Assembly: GCA_943356675.1 (NCBI GenBank)
Contig: CALRFQ010000004.1
Location: forward strand, 1 to 52,317
DNA: 52,317 nt
Origin: Candidatus Nomurabacteria bacterium
GTDB lineage: Bacteria > Patescibacteriota > Minisyncoccia > Phycocordibacterales > UBA9973
Direction: 5' to 3'
The number at the start of each line of letters is the position of its first letter. Position 1 is the stretch's first letter. Both the position numbers and the translations under genes were made by a program. The notes beneath the pieces were generated by a model that saw nothing but the letters and a program-made list of their open reading frames with translations, was not told the origin of the DNA and did no database searches. Of this stretch, positions 30,523 to 40,836 are shown piece after piece.

Positions 30523-32376
30523 ATGATGAAAAAATATTTATCAATTTTTGTTTTATCTTTTTTGTTCCTAAGCACTAATAGTGCCTTGGCTGTTTATAAT
30601 GCGTCAGACGTGATAGGGCAACGTGATTCTTCAAATAATGCTGTTTTTACAACAAGTGCTGCAAATAACGGTAGTACGGTAAGTGCACGAGGGCTTTCTA
30701 GTGAAGTTCGTGCTGTAAAATTAGACACAGTACATCACCGATTGTTCGTTGTGGATAGAAATAACAATCGTGTACTTGTGTACAACCTTGATTCCAGTAA
30801 TAATCTTCTTGATACAGATGCTGATAATGTATTTGGACAAGTTGATTTAACTGCTACTGCATCATCTTGTACTACCGCGACAGGTTTAAATTCACCTACT
30901 GGCGCAGAATATGATTCTGCAAATAATCGTCTATTTGTTGCTATGACCAATAGTGGAAGTGCTTATAGTCGTATTGTTGTTTATGATTTATCTTCTGGTA
31001 TTACAGATGGGATGGCTGCAGTAAATGTACTTGGTCAAGCAAATCTTACAACATGTAATTCTAGAGTAAGTACGGCGAGTAACGTATATTTCCCATTTGA
31101 TATGAAGTACGACACTACTACAGGGTTATTGTATGTAGCAGATTTGTCTCGTAACCGTGCACTTGTTTTTGATGCTCGTCCAGCAAGTTCTGCTCCTATG
31201 ACTGTGTGTGGTGCTACTACAACAGGTATAGTAGACAATATGGATGCATCATGTGTTCTTGGTCAACCAAACTTTTCTACAGTTAGTTCAGGTAATACAA
31301 TAGCAAAAATGAATGGTACATTTGGTTTTGAAATCGATACGACTAATCATCGTTTATATGTATCTGAATATGCTTCCAATCGTATTAAGGTTTATGACAC
31401 ATCAGCATTAGCAACAAGCATGGATGCTTCATATGTTTTAGGTCAGACTGATTTTTCTGGAGCTACATCAGGTGTAACACAATCGAAATTTAATTCTCCG
31501 ACTGCGATGGCGTTTGATGCCACTACTGGACTACTTTATGTAACTGATGAAAACAACCACCGTGTAATGGTTTTTGATGTATCAGGAACTATATCTAACG
31601 GAATGTCTGCATCGTATATTCTTGGTGCAGATGATTTTACAACAATAAATAGTGGACCTACAGCATCTTTAATGGGAGTAGTTTTTGGTGTTGCTATTGA
31701 TACAAACAACAAGAATTTATTTGTGGTGGATAAAACTAATGACCGTGTTCTTCTTTTTAAACCAACTATTGCAATTCAATCAAGCACATTGAATTCAGGT
31801 AAAGTAACTAGAACATATTCAGAAAGTATATCGATAAGTGATAATCAACAGACTCCTTCTCTTGAGCTAGTTAGTGGAACGTTACCAACTGGAATTTCAA
31901 TTTCAGGTACATCATTAGTGGGTAGAGCTACAGAATTTGGAACTTACAATTTTGTATTAAAGGCAGTTGATACTGGCATACACGGAATTTTCTCTTCAGA
32001 TGACACTAATTTCAGCATAGACATTCAATACCTACCTAGTACTTCTGGATCTACTGCTTCAAGCTTTGGTTCAAAAGTAAACAATAATACTCAAAGTTCA
32101 ATTCCTGTAAGTACTGAAAATGATACATCTATTAAGGTGTGTGCCGCATTTGGTAAGCCAGTTAAGTTTGGTAGAAATAATGATAAAGATGAGGTAAAGC
32201 TATGGCAACAATTCTTAAACAATAGTGAAGGTGAGAAATTAGCTGTTGATGGAGGATACGGATTAAAGAGCAAGCTAGCTGTTGCTAGATTCCAAAAGAA
32301 GCACAACCTAGGATCAGATGGAATTATAGGTCCAAAAACAGAAGAAGAGGGTAATAAAACAAAGACTTGTTATTAA
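30523..32376 (+). CDS. Secreted NHL-type beta-propeller protein with Ig-like and peptidoglycan-binding-like C-terminus
   Basis: Signal peptide KKYLSIFVLSFLFLSTNSALA; repeated VLGQ..F / HRLFV.D..NNRV motifs; C-terminal DEVKLWQQFLNNSEGEKLAVDGGYGLKSKLAVARFQKKHNLGSDGIIGP. Confidence 0.88.
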   Translation: MMKKYLSIFVLSFLFLSTNSALAVYNASDVIGQRDSSNNAVFTTSAANNGSTVSARGLSSEVRAVKLDTVHHRLFVVDRNNNRVLVYNLDSSNNLLDTDADNVFGQVDLTATASSCTTATGLNSPTGAEYDSANNRLFVAMTNSGSAYSRIVVYDLSSGITDGMAAVNVLGQANLTTCNSRVSTASNVYFPFDMKYDTTTGLLYVADLSRNRALVFDARPASSAPMTVCGATTTGIVDNMDASCVLGQPNFSTVSSGNTIAKMNGTFGFEIDTTNHRLYVSEYASNRIKVYDTSALATSMDASYVLGQTDFSGATSGVTQSKFNSPTAMAFDATTGLLYVTDENNHRVMVFDVSGTISNGMSASYILGADDFTTINSGPTASLMGVVFGVAIDTNNKNLFVVDKTNDRVLLFKPTIAIQSSTLNSGKVTRTYSESISISDNQQTPSLELVSGTLPTGISISGTSLVGRATEFGTYNFVLKAVDTGIHGIFSSDDTNFSIDIQYLPSTSGSTASSFGSKVNNNTQSSIPVSTENDTSIKVCAAFGKPVKFGRNNDKDEVKLWQQFLNNSEGEKLAVDGGYGLKSKLAVARFQKKHNLGSDGIIGPKTEEEGNKTKTCY

Positions 32377-32384
32377 TTATGCTC

Positions 32385-32414
32385 ATAAAAACACCACATA
32401 TGTGGTGTTTTTAT
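32385..32414. terminator. Perfect 30-bp palindromic terminator between NHL paralogues
   Basis: ATAAAAACACCACAT|ATGTGGTGTTTTTAT. Confidence 0.8.
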
Positions 32415-32471
32415 GTAATATCTTTTAAACTTATGATATAATATTAAAACTTAATAGTTAACTTTTATATT

Positions 32472-34292
32472 ATGAAAAAATATTTATCAATTTTTGTTTT
32501 ATCTTTTTTGTTCCTAAGCACTAATAGTGCCTTGGCTGTTTATAATGCGTCAGATGTTATAGGGCAGCGTGACGGGTCTAATAATGCGTCTTATACTACA
32601 AACACCGCAGCTGTAACAGCAAGTGGTTTGTCTGCTTATATACGAGGTATTGCCCTAGACGAAGTACATCATCGTCTGTTTATATCTGACGGATCAAACA
32701 ACCGTGTTTTGGTTTACAATCTTGACTCAGCAAATAAACTTATAGACACTACCGCTGACAATGTTCTAGGTCAACCAGATATGACATCAAACACGTCTTT
32801 ATGTACCAGTATGTCTGGTTTAGCTGGCCCCAGAGGTTTGTCTTATGACCCATTAAACAATCGCCTTTTTGTTACGATGGATGGTATGACTGATTACAGA
32901 ACAGGGCATGGTGTTTTTGTATACGACGTAGCTTCAATTACAGACGGTGAAGCGGCTGTGAATGTGCTAGGCAGGTCAACTATGGCATCTTGTGCAAACA
33001 CAAGTGTATACAATGCTGTAAATATTATGTTTCCGTACGGTGTTGCCTTTGATGTAGAAACAGGCCTATTATATGTTTCTGACCTATCTCATAGCCGTGT
33101 TGTCGCTTTTGATGCACGACCAGCTGGTAGTGCATCTACTTCATTTTGTGGCGCCAGTGCCACCACAGGTATTGCAGACTTTATGTCAGCTTCATGTGTG
33201 ATAGGTAAAGCAAACTTTACTTCGTCTACTTCAGCTCCTTTATCTGATACTGTTATGGGTAACAATTCAGGTGTAACTATAGATTATGTACACCACAGGC
33301 TTTTTGTTAGTCAGTATGCTTCAAATAGAATTACAGTATATGACATATCAAGTTTGGCAAACGGAATGGCTGCATCATATGTTATCGGGCAGGCAGACTT
33401 TTCTACATCTGCAGCTGGATTAACCGCATCTACTGTAAACAATGTCAGCTCTACAAGTTATGACTCTGTAAATAATTACCTTTATGCATCAGATGAATTA
33501 AATAGACGCGTTCTAGTATATAAATTAGACAATATAGCAAACGGCATGTCTGCTTCATACATACTTGGCCAAGACGATTTTACTACAAACACAGCAAGTC
33601 TGACACAGCATGGTTTCGGAGACAAGCCAGGTGAATCTTATTATGATACAACAAATCAACGCCTGTATGTTTTAGAACAAGCTGGTGCACGCGCATTAGT
33701 TTTCCAGCCAACAATCGCAATCCAATCAAGCACATTAAATTCAGGTAAAGTGACTAGGTCATATTCAGAAAGTATAACGATAAGTGATAATCAACAGACT
33801 CCTTCCCTTGAACTAGTTAGTGGAACGTTACCAAGTGGAATTTCAATTTCAGGTACGTCACTAGTGGGTAGAGCTATAGAATTTGGAACTTACAATTTTG
33901 TACTAAAAGCAATAGATACTGGTATTCATGGTATTTTCTCCTCAGATAATACTAATTTTAGTATTGATATTCAGTATCTACCTAGTACTTCTGGTTCTAC
34001 AATTATGGGTTCAATACCCATAGAGATTAATAATAATGATTCATCAAGTAAAGTTTGTGTAGCATTTAGTAAAACTATAAAAGCTGGTCAAAAGAATGAT
34101 AAAGATGAAGTTAAGTTATGGCAGCAATTTTTAAACAATAGTGAAAATGAGAACTTAGTGATCGACGGGGGGTATGGTGCGAAGAGTAAAGCTGCAATTG
34201 TTAAATTTCAAAAGAAAAATAATTTGGGTTCTGATGGTATCATAGGACCGGTTACTCGTCTTCCAGCAAATATGATCCTTGGATGTAAGTAA
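32472..34292 (+). CDS. Paralogous secreted NHL-type beta-propeller protein with peptidoglycan-binding-like C-terminus
   Basis: Same signal peptide and C-terminal modules as 30523..32376; ends TRLPANMILGCK. Confidence 0.88.
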   Translation: MKKYLSIFVLSFLFLSTNSALAVYNASDVIGQRDGSNNASYTTNTAAVTASGLSAYIRGIALDEVHHRLFISDGSNNRVLVYNLDSANKLIDTTADNVLGQPDMTSNTSLCTSMSGLAGPRGLSYDPLNNRLFVTMDGMTDYRTGHGVFVYDVASITDGEAAVNVLGRSTMASCANTSVYNAVNIMFPYGVAFDVETGLLYVSDLSHSRVVAFDARPAGSASTSFCGASATTGIADFMSASCVIGKANFTSSTSAPLSDTVMGNNSGVTIDYVHHRLFVSQYASNRITVYDISSLANGMAASYVIGQADFSTSAAGLTASTVNNVSSTSYDSVNNYLYASDELNRRVLVYKLDNIANGMSASYILGQDDFTTNTASLTQHGFGDKPGESYYDTTNQRLYVLEQAGARALVFQPTIAIQSSTLNSGKVTRSYSESITISDNQQTPSLELVSGTLPSGISISGTSLVGRAIEFGTYNFVLKAIDTGIHGIFSSDNTNFSIDIQYLPSTSGSTIMGSIPIEINNNDSSSKVCVAFSKTIKAGQKNDKDEVKLWQQFLNNSENENLVIDGGYGAKSKAAIVKFQKKNNLGSDGIIGPVTRLPANMILGCK

Positions 34293-34351
34293 ATCTATTT
34301 CTCTCAAAAAAGTGCTTTTTTTACACAGTATTTACTGTATAATATAAACAC

Positions 34352-36304
34352 ATGAAACGGAAGTTAATATTTAAGGTAATATCTGTATTTATAATAATTT
34401 CAGTATTTTTTATTGCTTATAAAAACTACTCACACGCTGCATTTAGTACAGTAGACTGTACAAACGGCGCACACCTCACAACACTAGGGGGTATATCTCA
34501 GGCTGAATGTCAGGCATTAGAAGATTTATATACAGATACAGCCGGTGCATCGTGGACCACTAAGACAAACTGGGATACTGTTTCTGATGTTGGTACATGG
34601 TACGGGGTAACTCGTACTGGTACACATGTTACAACTATTCTATTAAATAGTAATAATCTGGTTGGGACTTTACCCTCATCTATCTCTAGTTTAACAGGGT
34701 TAGTAAGTTTCAATGTGCAAAATAATACACTTTCTGGTCCTATACCATCTTTTACTTCAAATACTGCTCTGATTAATCTTATTATGAGCTATAATCAATT
34801 CACTGGATCAATTCCATCATTAAGTACAAATACATTATTAGAATATGTTTATTTTAATAATAATCAACTCACTGGGTCTATTCCATCTTTATCAACCAAT
34901 ACCGTATTGGTTGATTTATATATTAATAATAATCAACTCACTGGGTCTATTCCATCACTAAGTACAAATACATTATTGAGATATGTTGATTTAGGATACA
35001 ATCAACTCACTGGGTCTATTCCATCCCTAACAACCAATACTACATTAGTTTATTTTTATGTTAATAATAATCAACTCACTGGGTCTATTCCATCATTAAC
35101 ACCAAATACATTATTGAAATATGTTGAGTTAAATAACAATCAGCTTACTGGATCTATTCCATCATTAACAGCAAATACAGTCCTAGAAGAATTTTATGTT
35201 AATAAAAATAATCTAAGTGGAGATATTCCAGATCTAACATCTTTTGCTTCACTTTTAGGTTCATTTGCTGAAAATGCTTTATATACCAGTTCTAGTACCA
35301 TAGATACAGCTGCAGATACTAAATTTTCTGAAAACTGGTCTGCTACGCAAACCATAGCTCCTACTGGAGTTGCTGCCACAGTATCAGGAACTGATATTAT
35401 TATTTCATGGAATCCTATAGAATATGCATCCATTGGGTCTTATAAAGTTTACTCAAGTACAGTTTCAGGTGGGCCGTACAGTACATTACAAGGCACCGTA
35501 GCTAGGACTGGTAGTCAAACACTTACTATTTCTGGTCTGAGTACTAATACGAATTATTATTTTATAGTTCAGTCGTATACACCAGACAACGGAACACAAC
35601 AAAATGTAGTAACTGCAGATTCAGCAGAAGTTTTAGGAAGAATTGCGAGGCGCTCAAGTTCTAGTGGAAGTTCTGGAAGAGTAATTCATACATATCCAAC
35701 AAGTGCGGATGCTTCTAAAATGAATATATCTTTAACCAATATTCCAACTTTAGTAAATAATATTGCCAAATTAAAGTGGAGCCCTATTGTTAATGCGGTC
35801 AGCATGGTGTTTTCTTTGGACTCAAATTTTATAAATGCAATAAGTATGCCATTCAAACAGGAATCAAATTTTATTTTACCAAGCGTTATTGGGACATATA
35901 ATATATACGCAAAACTCACTTCTTCTACTGGTGATTCATTGTATTTTAATCCAATCTTAGTAAAAATTGATAACATTTCAAAAATTAAGCTAGTGGAAAA
36001 GCCAATCGTTCCAAAAGTGATTAATAAAAAACCAACAGTAACTCCAATTAAAACTATAAAGACATGTGGACCGCTTAATAAATACTTAGAACCAGGAAGA
36101 GTAAATAATGATAAAAATGAAGTTAAGCTTTGGCAGAATTTCTTGAATAAATACGAGGGGGAGGAACTTGATGTAAATGGTAATTATGATTTACTAACTC
36201 AAGAAGCTGTCTTTCGGTATCAAGCTGTAAATAATATGAAAGTTGACGGAGTAATAGGATCCGCTACACGCCTACCAGCAAACAGAATCCTTGGCTGTAA
36301 GTAA
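34352..36304 (+). CDS. Secreted leucine-rich-repeat protein with Fn3-like and peptidoglycan-binding-like domains
   Basis: N-terminal TM/signal; (N)NNQLTGSIPSLxxNTxLxxxxx repeats; TNYYFIVQSYTPDNG Fn3-like; C-terminal NEVKLWQNFLN...VDGVIGSATRLPANRILGCK. Confidence 0.9.
   Translation: MKRKLIFKVISVFIIISVFFIAYKNYSHAAFSTVDCTNGAHLTTLGGISQAECQALEDLYTDTAGASWTTKTNWDTVSDVGTWYGVTRTGTHVTTILLNSNNLVGTLPSSISSLTGLVSFNVQNNTLSGPIPSFTSNTALINLIMSYNQFTGSIPSLSTNTLLEYVYFNNNQLTGSIPSLSTNTVLVDLYINNNQLTGSIPSLSTNTLLRYVDLGYNQLTGSIPSLTTNTTLVYFYVNNNQLTGSIPSLTPNTLLKYVELNNNQLTGSIPSLTANTVLEEFYVNKNNLSGDIPDLTSFASLLGSFAENALYTSSSTIDTAADTKFSENWSATQTIAPTGVAATVSGTDIIISWNPIEYASIGSYKVYSSTVSGGPYSTLQGTVARTGSQTLTISGLSTNTNYYFIVQSYTPDNGTQQNVVTADSAEVLGRIARRSSSSGSSGRVIHTYPTSADASKMNISLTNIPTLVNNIAKLKWSPIVNAVSMVFSLDSNFINAISMPFKQESNFILPSVIGTYNIYAKLTSSTGDSLYFNPILVKIDNISKIKLVEKPIVPKVINKKPTVTPIKTIKTCGPLNKYLEPGRVNNDKNEVKLWQNFLNKYEGEELDVNGNYDLLTQEAVFRYQAVNNMKVDGVIGSATRLPANRILGCK
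34721..35272 (+). repeat. Eight tandem 69-nt units encoding 23-aa plant-type LRRs
   Basis: Units such as NNQLTGSIPSLSTNTLLEYVYFN with 69-nt periodicity; near-identical core aataatcaactcactgggtctattccatc. Confidence 0.9.
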
Positions 36305-36351: not shown

Positions 36352-39300
36352 ATGGATGAAACAGTTAAGAAATCAAATAATGCAGAAAGGGAAGAGAAGA
36401 TACTGAAATTCTGGCAGGAGAATGATACTTTTCAAAAAAGTTTAAAAAAGGATGCTCCAAAAGGGAACTATGTGTTTTATGATGGGCCACCTTTCGCTAC
36501 AGGGCTCCCTCACTATGGGCATATCTTGGGCTCTACTGCTAAAGACGCCATAGGCCGCTACAAGACCATGCAGGGCTTTACTGTGCCACGTAAGTGGGGC
36601 TGGGATTGCCATGGGCTTCCTATTGAGAACATTGTAGAGAAAGATCTTGGGATTTCTGGAAAGAAGGGCATTGAAGAATACGGGCTAGAGAAATTCTCAG
36701 AGCATGCTCGAAGTAAGGTCCTCACATATGTGGGTGATTGGAAGAGGACAGTGGATCGTATGGGGCGCTGGGTGGACTTCGATAATTCATACAAGACTAT
36801 GGACAACACTTTCATCGAAAGTGTGTGGTGGGCTCTCGGTGAACTAAACAAAAAAGAATTACTTTACGAAGGAGTGCGCGTGCTTGCATATTGCCCACGT
36901 TGTGAGACTCCAATTGCCAATTCTGAAATAGCGATGGACAACAGTTATAAGGATATAACTGATATTTCTGTTTATGTGAAGTTTGAATTAGTGAGTGAAC
37001 CAAAAACATACCTACTTGCATGGACGACAACTCCTTGGACTCTACCGGGGAACACTGCTGTAGCAGTGAATAAAGATTTCACCTATGTATATGTAAAAAA
37101 TAATAAAGAAGATGTGAATGAGACTTTAATTCTTGAAAAGGGTAGATTTGAAATACTGAAAGATAAATTTACAAATCCTGAAATATTAAAAGAGGTTTCC
37201 GGTAGTGACCTTATCGGACTCTCATACTTGCCAGTATTTAGTTACTACAAGGATACAGATATGCCAAATAAAGAAAATATTTGGAAAGTTTGGCATGCTG
37301 ATTTTATAACATCGGATTCAGGTACTGGTATCGCTCACGAAGCTCCAGCCTTCGGAGAGGATGATATGAATTTAGCAAAAGCAAACAATATTCCTTTTAT
37401 TCGCCATGTGGAGCCAAACGGAACTTTCGTAAGCATGGTTACGGATTTCGCTGGAGAGAAAGCGAAACCAAAAGAGGATCACCAGTCCGGCGACGTGCTC
37501 ATCATAAAGTACCTTGCGAAAGAGGGCGCACTTTTTGCAAAAGAAAAAATCATCCACTCATATCCTCACTGCTACCGCTGTGAGACACCACTACTATACT
37601 ATGCACTTCCTTCTTGGTTTGTGAACATCCAAAAGGTGAAGGCGAAGGCTCTCGAAGAGGCTAAATCTATGAATTGGATCCCTTCGCACCTTAAAGATGG
37701 ACGCTTCAACAATATACTCGAGAATGCACCAGACTGGACCATCTCTCGCAATCGCTTCTGGGCGAGCCCACTTCCTATTTGGAAAAACAAAGATGGGAAA
37801 ATACTTTTTGTAAATTCACTTGAAGATTTGAAAAATAAAACTAAAAAAAGTGGGAATAAATATTTCGGAATGCGACATGGTTATGGTCAGCATATGGAGA
37901 AGGGGGTAGTGTCATCACTCGACCATGATTCATATCACCTTACAGAAGAAGGCAGAAACGAGGTAGTAAAAAGCGCTACAGATTTGAAGAATAAAGGTAT
38001 TACAAAAATCTTTACTTCACCACTAATTCGCACGAAAGAAACTGCAAAGATCGCTGCAGGAATTTTAGGTATTAATCCAAGTGAGATAGTAGTAGATGAC
38101 AGGATTCGTGAGTATGAATTCGGAGAATTTAATGGCAAGCCTTGGCAAGAGTATATCGATTATCGTGATCAACATATCGCCACTTATGATGAGCCACTAG
38201 GAGGGTCAAGCTTACTTGAAACGAAAAAGCGTTTCGCTGATTTTATTTATGAAATTGAAAATAATTTCCAGAATGAAAATATTTTAATTGTGACTCACGG
38301 TGTTTTCTTCGAAACAATACCAGCGATAATTGAAGGAGCAAATAATGAAAGATCACTTGAAATAGTTTTTGAGGTCTTTAACAATGCACGAATACAACCA
38401 GCAGAAGTAAGAGAATATGATTTTACTCCAATCCCTCACAATGCAAAATACGAGCTTGATATGCATCGCCCGTATATTGATAGGATTACACTAGTGGATG
38501 AAAATGTAGATGAATACAAGAGAATTCCTGAGGTGATAGACTGCTGGTTTGAATCTGGCTCAATGCCATTTGCTCAGGATCACTATCCGTTTGAGCGCCC
38601 AAACTGGCAGAAAGAGAATTTCCCAGCTGGCTTTGTGGCAGAATATATTGCTCAGACTCGCACATGGTTCTACTACTCACATATTATTTCTACTATTTTA
38701 TTCGGGCAAGCTCCATTTCAGAATATTATTTCTACAGGTACGGTACTCGCAGAAGATGGAGAGAAGATGAGTAAGTCCAAGAATAATTTCACAGACCCTT
38801 GGATAATGTTTAATAAAGTGGGCGTGGATCCTATACGCTTCTATCTTATGAGTTCACAGGTAATGCGTGGGGAGGATTTGAACTTCTCAGATAAGGCAGT
38901 GCAAGATGTGGCAAGTAAAATCGTAGGACGCTTGGATAATGTGGTAGCATTTTATGAACTATATCGTGATAAAAATCTAGAACCTAGAACCTCTAACCTA
39001 GAACCTAGTTCAAATGCTTTAGATATCTGGATACTTGCAAGATTAAGTGAGACTATAAATGAAGTAACTCTCAATATGGATGCATATGATTTAGCGCTTG
39101 CTTCTAGACCTTTTGAAAGCTTCATAGAAGACCTTTCCACTTGGTATCTTCGCCGTTCACGCGACCGAATAAAGGATGGCGACAAAGAAGCAAAATCCAC
39201 AATGTATTTCGTGCTCAAAAATTTGGTGAAGGTTATGGCTCCATTTACACCTTTCATAGCAGAAGATGTATGGCAGAGGCTCAAGACTGAAGGGGATGCT

Positions 39301-39834
39301 GAAAGTGTGCATTTAGCTAAATGGCCTGAAGGGCAGGTTCTAGTTTCTAGTGATAAGGTTCTAGTAGAAATGCAACAAGTTAGAGATGTAGTTACACTTG
39401 GACTCGAAGCTCGTCAAAAAATGGGTATTAAGGTTCGTCAACCTCTAAATAGCTTAAAGGTTGTAGGTAGTAGGTTACAGGATGAGTATATAGAAATTTT
39501 GAAAGATGAGTTGAATATTAAAAATATTGAGATAGTAGAAGGGGAGGCACTAAATGTGGAGCTGGATACAAATATCACATTAGAATTAAAACAAGAAGGG
39601 GACTACCGTGAATTACTTCGTGCTGTGCAGGACCTAAGAAAGACAGAAGGACTTAACCCAAGTGATGTTGTGACTCTCGTTATTTATACAGATGAAAATG
39701 GGAAAAATATTGTGGAAATGTTTAAGAATGATTTTATGAAAACTGCCGGACTTAAAGAAATAAAAATGGAAGAGTTCGATGGGCTTGAAGTGAAAGTAGG
39801 GGAACTAGTATTTAAAATAAAAATTCTCAAATAA
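36352..39834 (+). CDS. ileS: Isoleucyl-tRNA synthetase containing an inserted histidine-phosphatase domain
   Basis: LPHYGHILGST (HIGH), YPHCYRCETPLLYYALPSWFV, DCWFESGSMPFAQDHYPFE, GEKMSKSKNNF (KMSKS). Insert FGMRHGYGQH...SPLIRTKETAKIAAGILG...LIVTHGVFFETI. Confidence 0.96.
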   Translation: MDETVKKSNNAEREEKILKFWQENDTFQKSLKKDAPKGNYVFYDGPPFATGLPHYGHILGSTAKDAIGRYKTMQGFTVPRKWGWDCHGLPIENIVEKDLGISGKKGIEEYGLEKFSEHARSKVLTYVGDWKRTVDRMGRWVDFDNSYKTMDNTFIESVWWALGELNKKELLYEGVRVLAYCPRCETPIANSEIAMDNSYKDITDISVYVKFELVSEPKTYLLAWTTTPWTLPGNTAVAVNKDFTYVYVKNNKEDVNETLILEKGRFEILKDKFTNPEILKEVSGSDLIGLSYLPVFSYYKDTDMPNKENIWKVWHADFITSDSGTGIAHEAPAFGEDDMNLAKANNIPFIRHVEPNGTFVSMVTDFAGEKAKPKEDHQSGDVLIIKYLAKEGALFAKEKIIHSYPHCYRCETPLLYYALPSWFVNIQKVKAKALEEAKSMNWIPSHLKDGRFNNILENAPDWTISRNRFWASPLPIWKNKDGKILFVNSLEDLKNKTKKSGNKYFGMRHGYGQHMEKGVVSSLDHDSYHLTEEGRNEVVKSATDLKNKGITKIFTSPLIRTKETAKIAAGILGINPSEIVVDDRIREYEFGEFNGKPWQEYIDYRDQHIATYDEPLGGSSLLETKKRFADFIYEIENNFQNENILIVTHGVFFETIPAIIEGANNERSLEIVFEVFNNARIQPAEVREYDFTPIPHNAKYELDMHRPYIDRITLVDENVDEYKRIPEVIDCWFESGSMPFAQDHYPFERPNWQKENFPAGFVAEYIAQTRTWFYYSHIISTILFGQAPFQNIISTGTVLAEDGEKMSKSKNNFTDPWIMFNKVGVDPIRFYLMSSQVMRGEDLNFSDKAVQDVASKIVGRLDNVVAFYELYRDKNLEPRTSNLEPSSNALDIWILARLSETINEVTLNMDAYDLALASRPFESFIEDLSTWYLRRSRDRIKDGDKEAKSTMYFVLKNLVKVMAPFTPFIAEDVWQRLKTEGDAESVHLAKWPEGQVLVSSDKVLVEMQQVRDVVTLGLEARQKMGIKVRQPLNSLKVVGSRLQDEYIEILKDELNIKNIEIVEGEALNVELDTNITLELKQEGDYRELLRAVQDLRKTEGLNPSDVVTLVIYTDENGKNIVEMFKNDFMKTAGLKEIKMEEFDGLEVKVGELVFKIKILK
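37848..38430 (+). other. Histidine phosphatase (phosphoglycerate-mutase-like) domain embedded in IleRS
   Basis: MRHG; HLTEEGRNEV; FTSPLIRTKETA; DDRIREYEFGEFNG; VTHGVF. Boundaries approximate. Confidence 0.88.
38976..39010 (+). repeat. Five near-perfect heptamers inside ileS
   Basis: tctagaa|cctagaa|cctctaa|cctagaa|cctagtt. Confidence 0.85.
39331..39365 (-). repeat. Inverted-orientation heptamers inside ileS
   Basis: gggcagg|ttctagt|ttctagt|gataagg|ttctagt (reverse complement of the CCTAGAA type). Confidence 0.65.
39454..39481 (-). repeat. Inverted-orientation heptamers inside ileS (second block)
   Basis: ttaaagg|ttgtagg|tagtagg|ttacagg. Confidence 0.6.
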
Positions 39835-40262
39835 TGAATACAGAGCAGTGCTACGGAATAATAGTGGTAAACAAGGATGAAGACTTAAAATTTCTGATAG
39901 TTCAGCTTGTGGATTCTGAAGGAAGCTGGGGCTTCCCGAAAGGGCACCATGAAGGCACTGAGACAAAGCTCGAGACCGCAAAGAGGGAAGCTTTCGAAGA
40001 AGTGGGCATTTCAGATATTAAAATCCTAGAAACAGAACTCATTCACGAAGAATACTTTATAAATAGGAACGGAGAGCAGGTTCTTAAAAATAATGATTAT
40101 TTTATTGGATTTGTGGATACAAAGGATGTAGTAATTCAAGAAGAAGAGATTAATGACTATAAATGGGCAACATACGAAGAAGCTCTAAACCTTCTCCAGT
40201 ATGACACTCGCAAAGTCGTGCTAACGAAAGCAAAAAATATTTTAGTAGATATGGTAAAATAA
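39834..40262 (+). CDS. NUDIX hydrolase (Ap4A-hydrolase-like)
   Basis: GSWGFPKGHHEGTETKLETAKREAFEEVGI. Confidence 0.92.
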   Translation: MNTEQCYGIIVVNKDEDLKFLIVQLVDSEGSWGFPKGHHEGTETKLETAKREAFEEVGISDIKILETELIHEEYFINRNGEQVLKNNDYFIGFVDTKDVVIQEEEINDYKWATYEEALNLLQYDTRKVVLTKAKNILVDMVK

Positions 40263-40266
40263 ATTT

Positions 40267-40836
40267 ATGAAAAAAGTATTTATGGTCCATGGTTTTAATG
40301 GAGAGCCAAACGGTGGATGGAGACCTTGGCTTATGGGAAAGCTTGCAAGTGATGATATATGGGCTTGCTCACTTCCAATGCCTACACCAAGTGACCCAAA
40401 GAAGGACGAGTGGGTAAATATGATTTCGGATTCAGTCGGAGACCCTAATGAAGAAATATTTCTTATGGGTCATTCACTTGGTGTGCCAAGTGTACTTAGG
40501 TATTTAGAAAGCCTACCAGAAGGTAAAAGGATTGGTGGCGCGGTATTAGTTTCTGGAATTATTGAAGTTATTCCTGGAAAAGAAAAGTACTCAAAAATTA
40601 ATCATTTTTTTGAAAATCCATTTGATTTTAATCATATAAAGAATGTGTGCCCAAATATTATTGTAATTCATGGAGAAGATGATCCTGCTGTGCCATTTAC
40701 TCAAGCACAAAAATTGTCACATGATTTAAGTTGCGAATTAATACCTGTCAAAAATGGAGGTCACCTGAATGGTTCATCTGGCTGGTATGAATTACCCGAG
40801 GCATATGATGCTTTAATAAAAATGATAAATAAGTAA
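40267..40836 (+). CDS. Alpha/beta hydrolase (RBBP9/YdeN-like)
   Basis: KVFMVHGFNGEPNGGWRPWL...FLMGHSLGVPSVLRYLE...VIHGEDDPAVPF...GGHLN. Confidence 0.88.
   Translation: MKKVFMVHGFNGEPNGGWRPWLMGKLASDDIWACSLPMPTPSDPKKDEWVNMISDSVGDPNEEIFLMGHSLGVPSVLRYLESLPEGKRIGGAVLVSGIIEVIPGKEKYSKINHFFENPFDFNHIKNVCPNIIVIHGEDDPAVPFTQAQKLSHDLSCELIPVKNGGHLNGSSGWYELPEAYDALIKMINK

Follow-up and report, generated by a model that had tools for sequence, protein, structure and literature searches.

Histidine phosphatases of branch 1 of PF00300, such as PhoE, PspA, and CobC, are free-standing enzymes that share an RHG motif, a second arginine, an acid residue, and a second histidine; they are broad or small-molecule phosphatases, and their substrates are small phosphoesters. 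Isoleucyl-tRNA synthetases (IleRS) of solved structure, among them those of T. thermophilus (1ile) and Priestia megaterium (IleRS2, 8c8v; type 2, the mupirocin-resistant type), have a short zinc-knuckle loop. There is a curated precedent for an IleRS with an additional enzyme domain, ileS_w_GNAT (NF040702), in which that enzyme is a GNAT. Mycobacterial MutT1 pairs a NUDIX domain with an RHG domain in a protein that has no synthetase part. MutT1 degrades diadenosine polyphosphates (PMC11784022, PMC7705103), and its NUDIX domain does this work; since no activity has been demonstrated for its RHG domain (PMC11784022), MutT1 is a weak functional parallel for the protein described below.

Aminoacyl-tRNA synthetases (aaRSs) are among the best-studied enzymes, which makes a phosphatase nested in one of them notable. 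Our literature search found no description of such a protein, and likewise none of an interchange between an RHG domain and an upstream gene or of a family of hydrolases inserted in synthetases; a paper on domain insertions (PMC13114784) mentions neither histidine phosphatases nor Patescibacteria. Already known are both partner families and the combination of IleRS with an extra enzyme domain (GNAT, in NCBIfam). What is new is a sister RHG as an upstream coupled gene in families of the same class whose IleRS lacks the insert.

An RHG phosphatase domain inside the IleRS catalytic domain

The window, that is, the whole 52,317-nucleotide stretch analyzed here, contains an ileS gene in which a complete RHG phosphatase gene has been placed in frame in the zinc-knuckle loop of IleRS (Table 1). 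The initial annotation had placed a histidine phosphatase domain within the IleRS catalytic domain at positions 37848 to 38430, and these boundaries are correct to within ∼25 bases; the reading frame is continuous across the insert from HIGH to KMSKS, as had been claimed. The open reading frame matches PF00133, PF08264, and PF00300 and exceeds the NCBIfam ileS equivalog cut-off (849.7 versus 621.4 bits for TIGR00392). Its assignment to IleRS is further supported by the presence of HIGH, KMSKS, and the editing domain and by a host fold that matches solved IleRS. In genome coordinates the ileS profile match is split in two, and PF00300 occupies the gap. Within the catalytic domain, the insertion falls in the loop that separates the two zinc half-sites, with GS..EL preceding it and DLHRPYID following it. 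The expectation of a short linker at this position was borne out by insert-less relatives, which have ∼10 amino acids there (e.g., GSVAELEKLTNQKVKDLHRPFID); compared with solved IleRS, the window protein has ∼195 extra residues. The zinc cysteines have been lost from the window IleRS and are kept in some relatives, such as that at locus L010.

Table 1. Features of the ileS locus in the window. Residue counts refer to 106 insert domains, for which the seed model was built from inserts and decayed copies may be under-counted.
Feature	Position	Strand	Evidence
ileS (isoleucyl-tRNA synthetase with nested RHG)	36352..39834	+	uninterrupted ORF, 1160 aa; TIGR00392 849.7 bits
N-terminal portion of IleRS (catalytic half plus editing domain), until first zinc half-site	36367..37863	+	TIGR00392 positions 4-506
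HIGH motif (HYGH, residues 54-57)	36511..36522	+	from translation
Whole inserted stretch	37864..38454	+	gap separating two TIGR00392 matches; alignments A1, A2
RHG histidine phosphatase domain, branch 1, residues 507-681	37870..38394 (genome-coordinate match 37870-38400)	+	PF00300 E 2e-25
R508-H509 of RHG motif (phosphate-accepting His)	37873..37878	+	invariant, 106/106
R560, second catalytic Arg (SPLIR)	38029..38031	+	106/106
E587, acid/base residue (RIREYE)	38110..38112	+	E in 101/106, D in 3
H649, second catalytic His (VTHG)	38296..38298	+	105/106
C-terminal portion of IleRS (second catalytic half plus anticodon-binding domain)	38455..39471	+	TIGR00392 positions 509-852
KMSKS motif (residues 805-809)	38764..38778	+	from translation
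NUDIX hydrolase gene, intact NUDIX box, overlaps ileS stop by one base	39834..40262	+	PF00293 E 2.1e-14
Ser_hydrolase (alpha/beta) gene, next after NUDIX	40267..40836	+	PF06821 E 3.4e-26

The PF00300 match of the full frame scores 90 bits against a gathering cut-off of 21.7, and the excised insert alone gives a clear match of 94.4 bits (E 9.3e-27). All five catalytic residues are in place (R508, H509, R560, E587, and H649), so that the acid residue is retained together with both catalytic histidines and the arginine pair that had been noticed initially. Inserts at the zinc site have a mean pairwise identity of only 34%. Among close pairs with usable dS, dN/dS is 0.05 to 0.14 for the insert and 0.08 to 0.14 for the host; in some more distant pairs the insert reaches 0.21 to 0.23, a weaker constraint than that on the host. 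We conclude that the RHG insert is held under strong constraint as an enzyme.

An AlphaFold model of the full-length window IleRS was confident (pLDDT 90.4, pTM 0.83), with pLDDT mostly 82 to 98 over residues 500 to 690 and confident strands and helices in alternation over residues 503 to 689. A single-sequence model of the insert alone was poor (pLDDT 51.6). Foldseek returned synthetases only among the best 50 matches to the full-length model. The host part resembles T. thermophilus IleRS with a TM-score of 0.92, and therefore the synthetase fold is unharmed by the insert; the corresponding value for P. megaterium IleRS2 is 0.82 (both by target length). The invariant catalytic residues, host-like purifying selection, and confident model make it highly probable that the insert, which the initial annotation had suggested could be active, is an active phosphomonoesterase.

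No curated substrate-specific RHG model in NCBIfam reached its own cut-off: equivalog scores fell short for NF038349 (2,3-dPGM; 80.7 versus 225), TIGR03162 (CobC alpha-ribazole phosphatase; 69.1 versus 162.9), NF045917 (PspA phosphoserine phosphatase; 44.2 versus 350), and TIGR00249 (SixA phosphohistidine phosphatase; 28.3 versus 74.5 bits). The window protein likewise missed the curated cut-off of NF040702 (342.1 versus 1999). By profile, the closest solved relatives of the insert are PhoE (1ebb/1h2e, E ∼4e-31), PspA (4ij5, 1e-28), and CobC (6nru, 6e-25), from which it differs in being nested in IleRS.

Distribution and exchange of the insert

Among 114 sampled genomes of the window's class, 76 carry the RHG insert in a long IleRS frame, 27 have an ileS without it, and the remainder are partial or unclear; 36 of the 76 carriers encode no RHG besides the insert. 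Within the window's family, PF00300 was found in 95 of 100 genomes, mostly in frames of ∼1120 to 1270 amino acids, and RHG-bearing IleRS recurs across the phylum in many other families of Patescibacteria, which number in the dozens. Scanning a public collection of genomes gave a list of 80 loci, 18 of which match the insert region; these are named Nomura-, Yanofsky-, Wolfe-, or Peregrinibacteria, plain "bacterium," and, in one possibly misnamed case, Spirochaetia. The remaining 62 match the IleRS flanks alone and come nearly all from other phyla (one is from Uhrbacteria); as these loci are a sample of matches, absence of the insert outside Patescibacteria is sampled, not proven. The initial annotation had named three findings on which its reading would fall, and each turned out the other way: the insert matches PF00300, other IleRS share it, and an assembly chimera is ruled out by the recurrence of the same architecture in the 76 class genomes and in independently assembled named genomes. 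The RHG insert in IleRS is real and old.

The relatives of the window have two IleRS types, each forming one clade (support 100), and the inserts are mixed across the two types (AU p = 0.017), so that by these phylogenies the inserts have moved between them. At L012, an RHG of another lineage occupies the same IleRS site. From this replacement and the discordance between inserts and IleRS types, we infer that the phosphatase was moved or re-acquired. Different RHG lineages are found at one IleRS site, and most independent insert lineages share that site, the zinc knuckle. The coexistence of the two IleRS types (∼43 to 50% identical) in the window's GTDB family points to xenologous replacement of ileS.

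RHG occurs sporadically in ValRS as well, at a site equivalent to that of IleRS or at a neighboring one. All RHG-bearing frames longer than 650 amino acids that were inspected are IleRS or, less often, ValRS; L044, L045, and L082 are IleRS. In Peregrinibacteria-type genomes (family f83), two RHGs stand in tandem within IleRS. Several individual synthetases combine modules: one IleRS has three RHGs at three sites (L067:2167-6882), a ValRS has two RHGs (L341), and other ValRS have RHG with ASCH (L002) or with HAD and Ser_hydrolase (L072). Further synthetases carry GNAT and RHG (L068), Ser_hydrolase, NUDIX, and RHG (L069), or an inserted Ser_hydrolase (L091), and an IleRS with NUDIX only (L328) belongs to a genome without RHG. 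Among shorter frames, L117, L118, and L119 (∼480 amino acids) have a mutase-type RHG domain, the last reading as a phosphoglycerate mutase-pyruvate kinase fusion. RHG also occurs C-terminal to a transporter-like membrane protein (L349, 624 amino acids) and to DedA-like membrane proteins (L350 and L351, 446 and 437 amino acids), all named by eye.

RHG genes upstream of ileS and possible roles of the insert

In five genomes of the same class (G373, G447, G488, G510, and G550, from families f19, f24, and f168), an RHG gene lies directly upstream of an insert-less ileS on the same strand, with gaps of −7 to +14 nucleotides to the ileS start where measured. The encoded proteins and the insert align over their entire lengths, and in the tree these proteins fall within insert clades; by its arrangement, the upstream gene is translationally coupled to ileS. 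In G172 (family f75), the RHG gene is 330 nucleotides upstream and groups in another insert clade. Among insert-less class genomes, 4 of 33 RHG genes adjoin ileS, versus 0.05 under a simple expectation, with fewer than 4 independent cases because the three f168 genomes are related. Since some relatives without the insert encode RHG just upstream of ileS, RHG and IleRS probably work together, and the role for the synthetase proposed in the initial annotation gains support; the candidate roles named there are regulation, adenylate or pyrophosphate clearance, and quality control. Two considerations count against such a tie: the adjacency might be a trace of the gain or loss of inserts and not of joint function, and unrelated enzymes in other loops of the same synthetases fit a tolerant chassis. 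RHG activity is also dispensable, because no RHG whatever is encoded in 12 of the 27 class genomes that lack the insert. On balance, we judge the chances that the function of the RHG is tied to IleRS to be even, and those of an insert that is both active and tied to be slightly under even.

We propose that the RHG domain, once placed in frame in IleRS, would have been kept as a working enzyme in which the histidine is phosphorylated and then hydrolyzed, and that it would serve the synthetase, either directly on it or alongside it, by dephosphorylating a small compound produced or met there. Because aaRSs make AMP and ApnN, including diadenosine polyphosphates (PMC7705103), the favored substrate class would be a nucleotide by-product of amino-acid activation, namely AMP, an aminoacyl-nucleotide, or a product of the breakdown of diadenosine polyphosphates such as Ap4A, an assignment that we nevertheless rate as unlikely to be right in itself. 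A NUDIX enzyme encoded beside or inside such synthetases might cooperate on diadenosine polyphosphates. Tentatively, the insert may be an extra catalytic centre of IleRS beyond synthesis and editing, which would clear or proofread a phosphorylated activation product, and may form part of a wider Patescibacterial habit of keeping interchangeable small-enzyme modules (RHG, NUDIX, HAD, Ser_hydrolase, GNAT, and ASCH) in or beside class I synthetases. The insert is widespread and conserved, and its relatives offer natural experiments (RHG as a separate coupled gene, RHG absent, a lineage with two, and a protein with three), which makes it testable whether charging with isoleucine, and sometimes valine, yields a product that needs removal by a phosphatase. 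The arrangement also bears on minimal genomes and the packing of activities into essential proteins.

The main rival to a tie with IleRS is that a general-purpose RHG enzyme sits in a permissive loop and supplies an activity that the cell needs for reasons unrelated to tRNA charging. This would suit the many carriers in which the insert is the only RHG (36 of 76), the hosting of NUDIX, GNAT, HAD, Ser_hydrolase, and ASCH as well by IleRS and ValRS, with L067 having its three RHGs at three sites, and the stretch 3′ of ileS in the window's family, where the complement of small hydrolase genes itself varies. It sits less easily with the restriction of RHG in long frames to IleRS and, less often, ValRS, with the targeting of one site by several RHG lineages, and with the repeated appearance of RHG, where the insert is missing, as a coupled gene directly upstream of ileS. 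We consider this explanation possible but rather doubtful.

Another candidate role is repair, in which the phosphatase would undo phosphorylation of the synthetase or of tRNA (e.g., by a HipA-like kinase toxin, or at a tRNA 3′-phosphate). Kinase toxins that phosphorylate aaRSs exist, and the insertion site lies within the catalytic domain. RHG enzymes can target phosphoproteins, as SixA does with phosphohistidine (PMC12934123). However, the closest solved relatives of the insert are small-molecule phosphatases and the SixA model scores under its cut-off, and we regard repair as improbable.

Still less probable is that the insert supplies a missing phosphoglycerate mutase. The window's own genome (G000) has an enolase match (C2:12050-12847) and lacks iPGM, aPGM (PF01676), and any other RHG, a pattern repeated in its close relatives G037, G042, and G056. 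Against this, iPGM is present in half of the genus's genomes (12 of 24), relatives hold both the insert and a separate mutase-type RHG, the NCBIfam mutase models remain far under their cut-off (80.7 versus 225), and genomes without the mutase have a divergent enolase (244 to 272 versus 446 bits). A pseudo-enzyme of which the fold alone matters, for instance in bracing a zinc-less knuckle, would agree with the lack in the window protein of the cysteines kept by relatives such as L010, but it is scarcely credible given catalytic residues that hardly vary in a domain that otherwise drifts and the presence of the insert in relatives with the cysteines as well.

Small-enzyme genes around ileS

Two of the families found as modules within synthetases are encoded directly downstream of ileS in the window (Table 1). 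NUDIX is a gene next to ileS here yet lies inside IleRS in another lineage, and Ser_hydrolase is the gene after NUDIX here, yet some IleRS and ValRS carry it as an insert. Elsewhere in the window's family (L172 to L211), the small enzyme genes that separate ileS from the following conserved gene (∼195 amino acids, RecO-like by eye) are variable and include NUDIX, Ser_hydrolase, HAD, ASCH-HAD, metallo-hydrolase-like, HD-like, and others, identified by eye except for the two of the window. Upstream of ileS, positions 30523-36304 hold three consecutive related genes of 606 to 650 amino acids, the third of which contains repeats of the leucine-rich type (TGSIPSL...) and, at the C terminus, a stretch resembling a peptidoglycan-binding domain.
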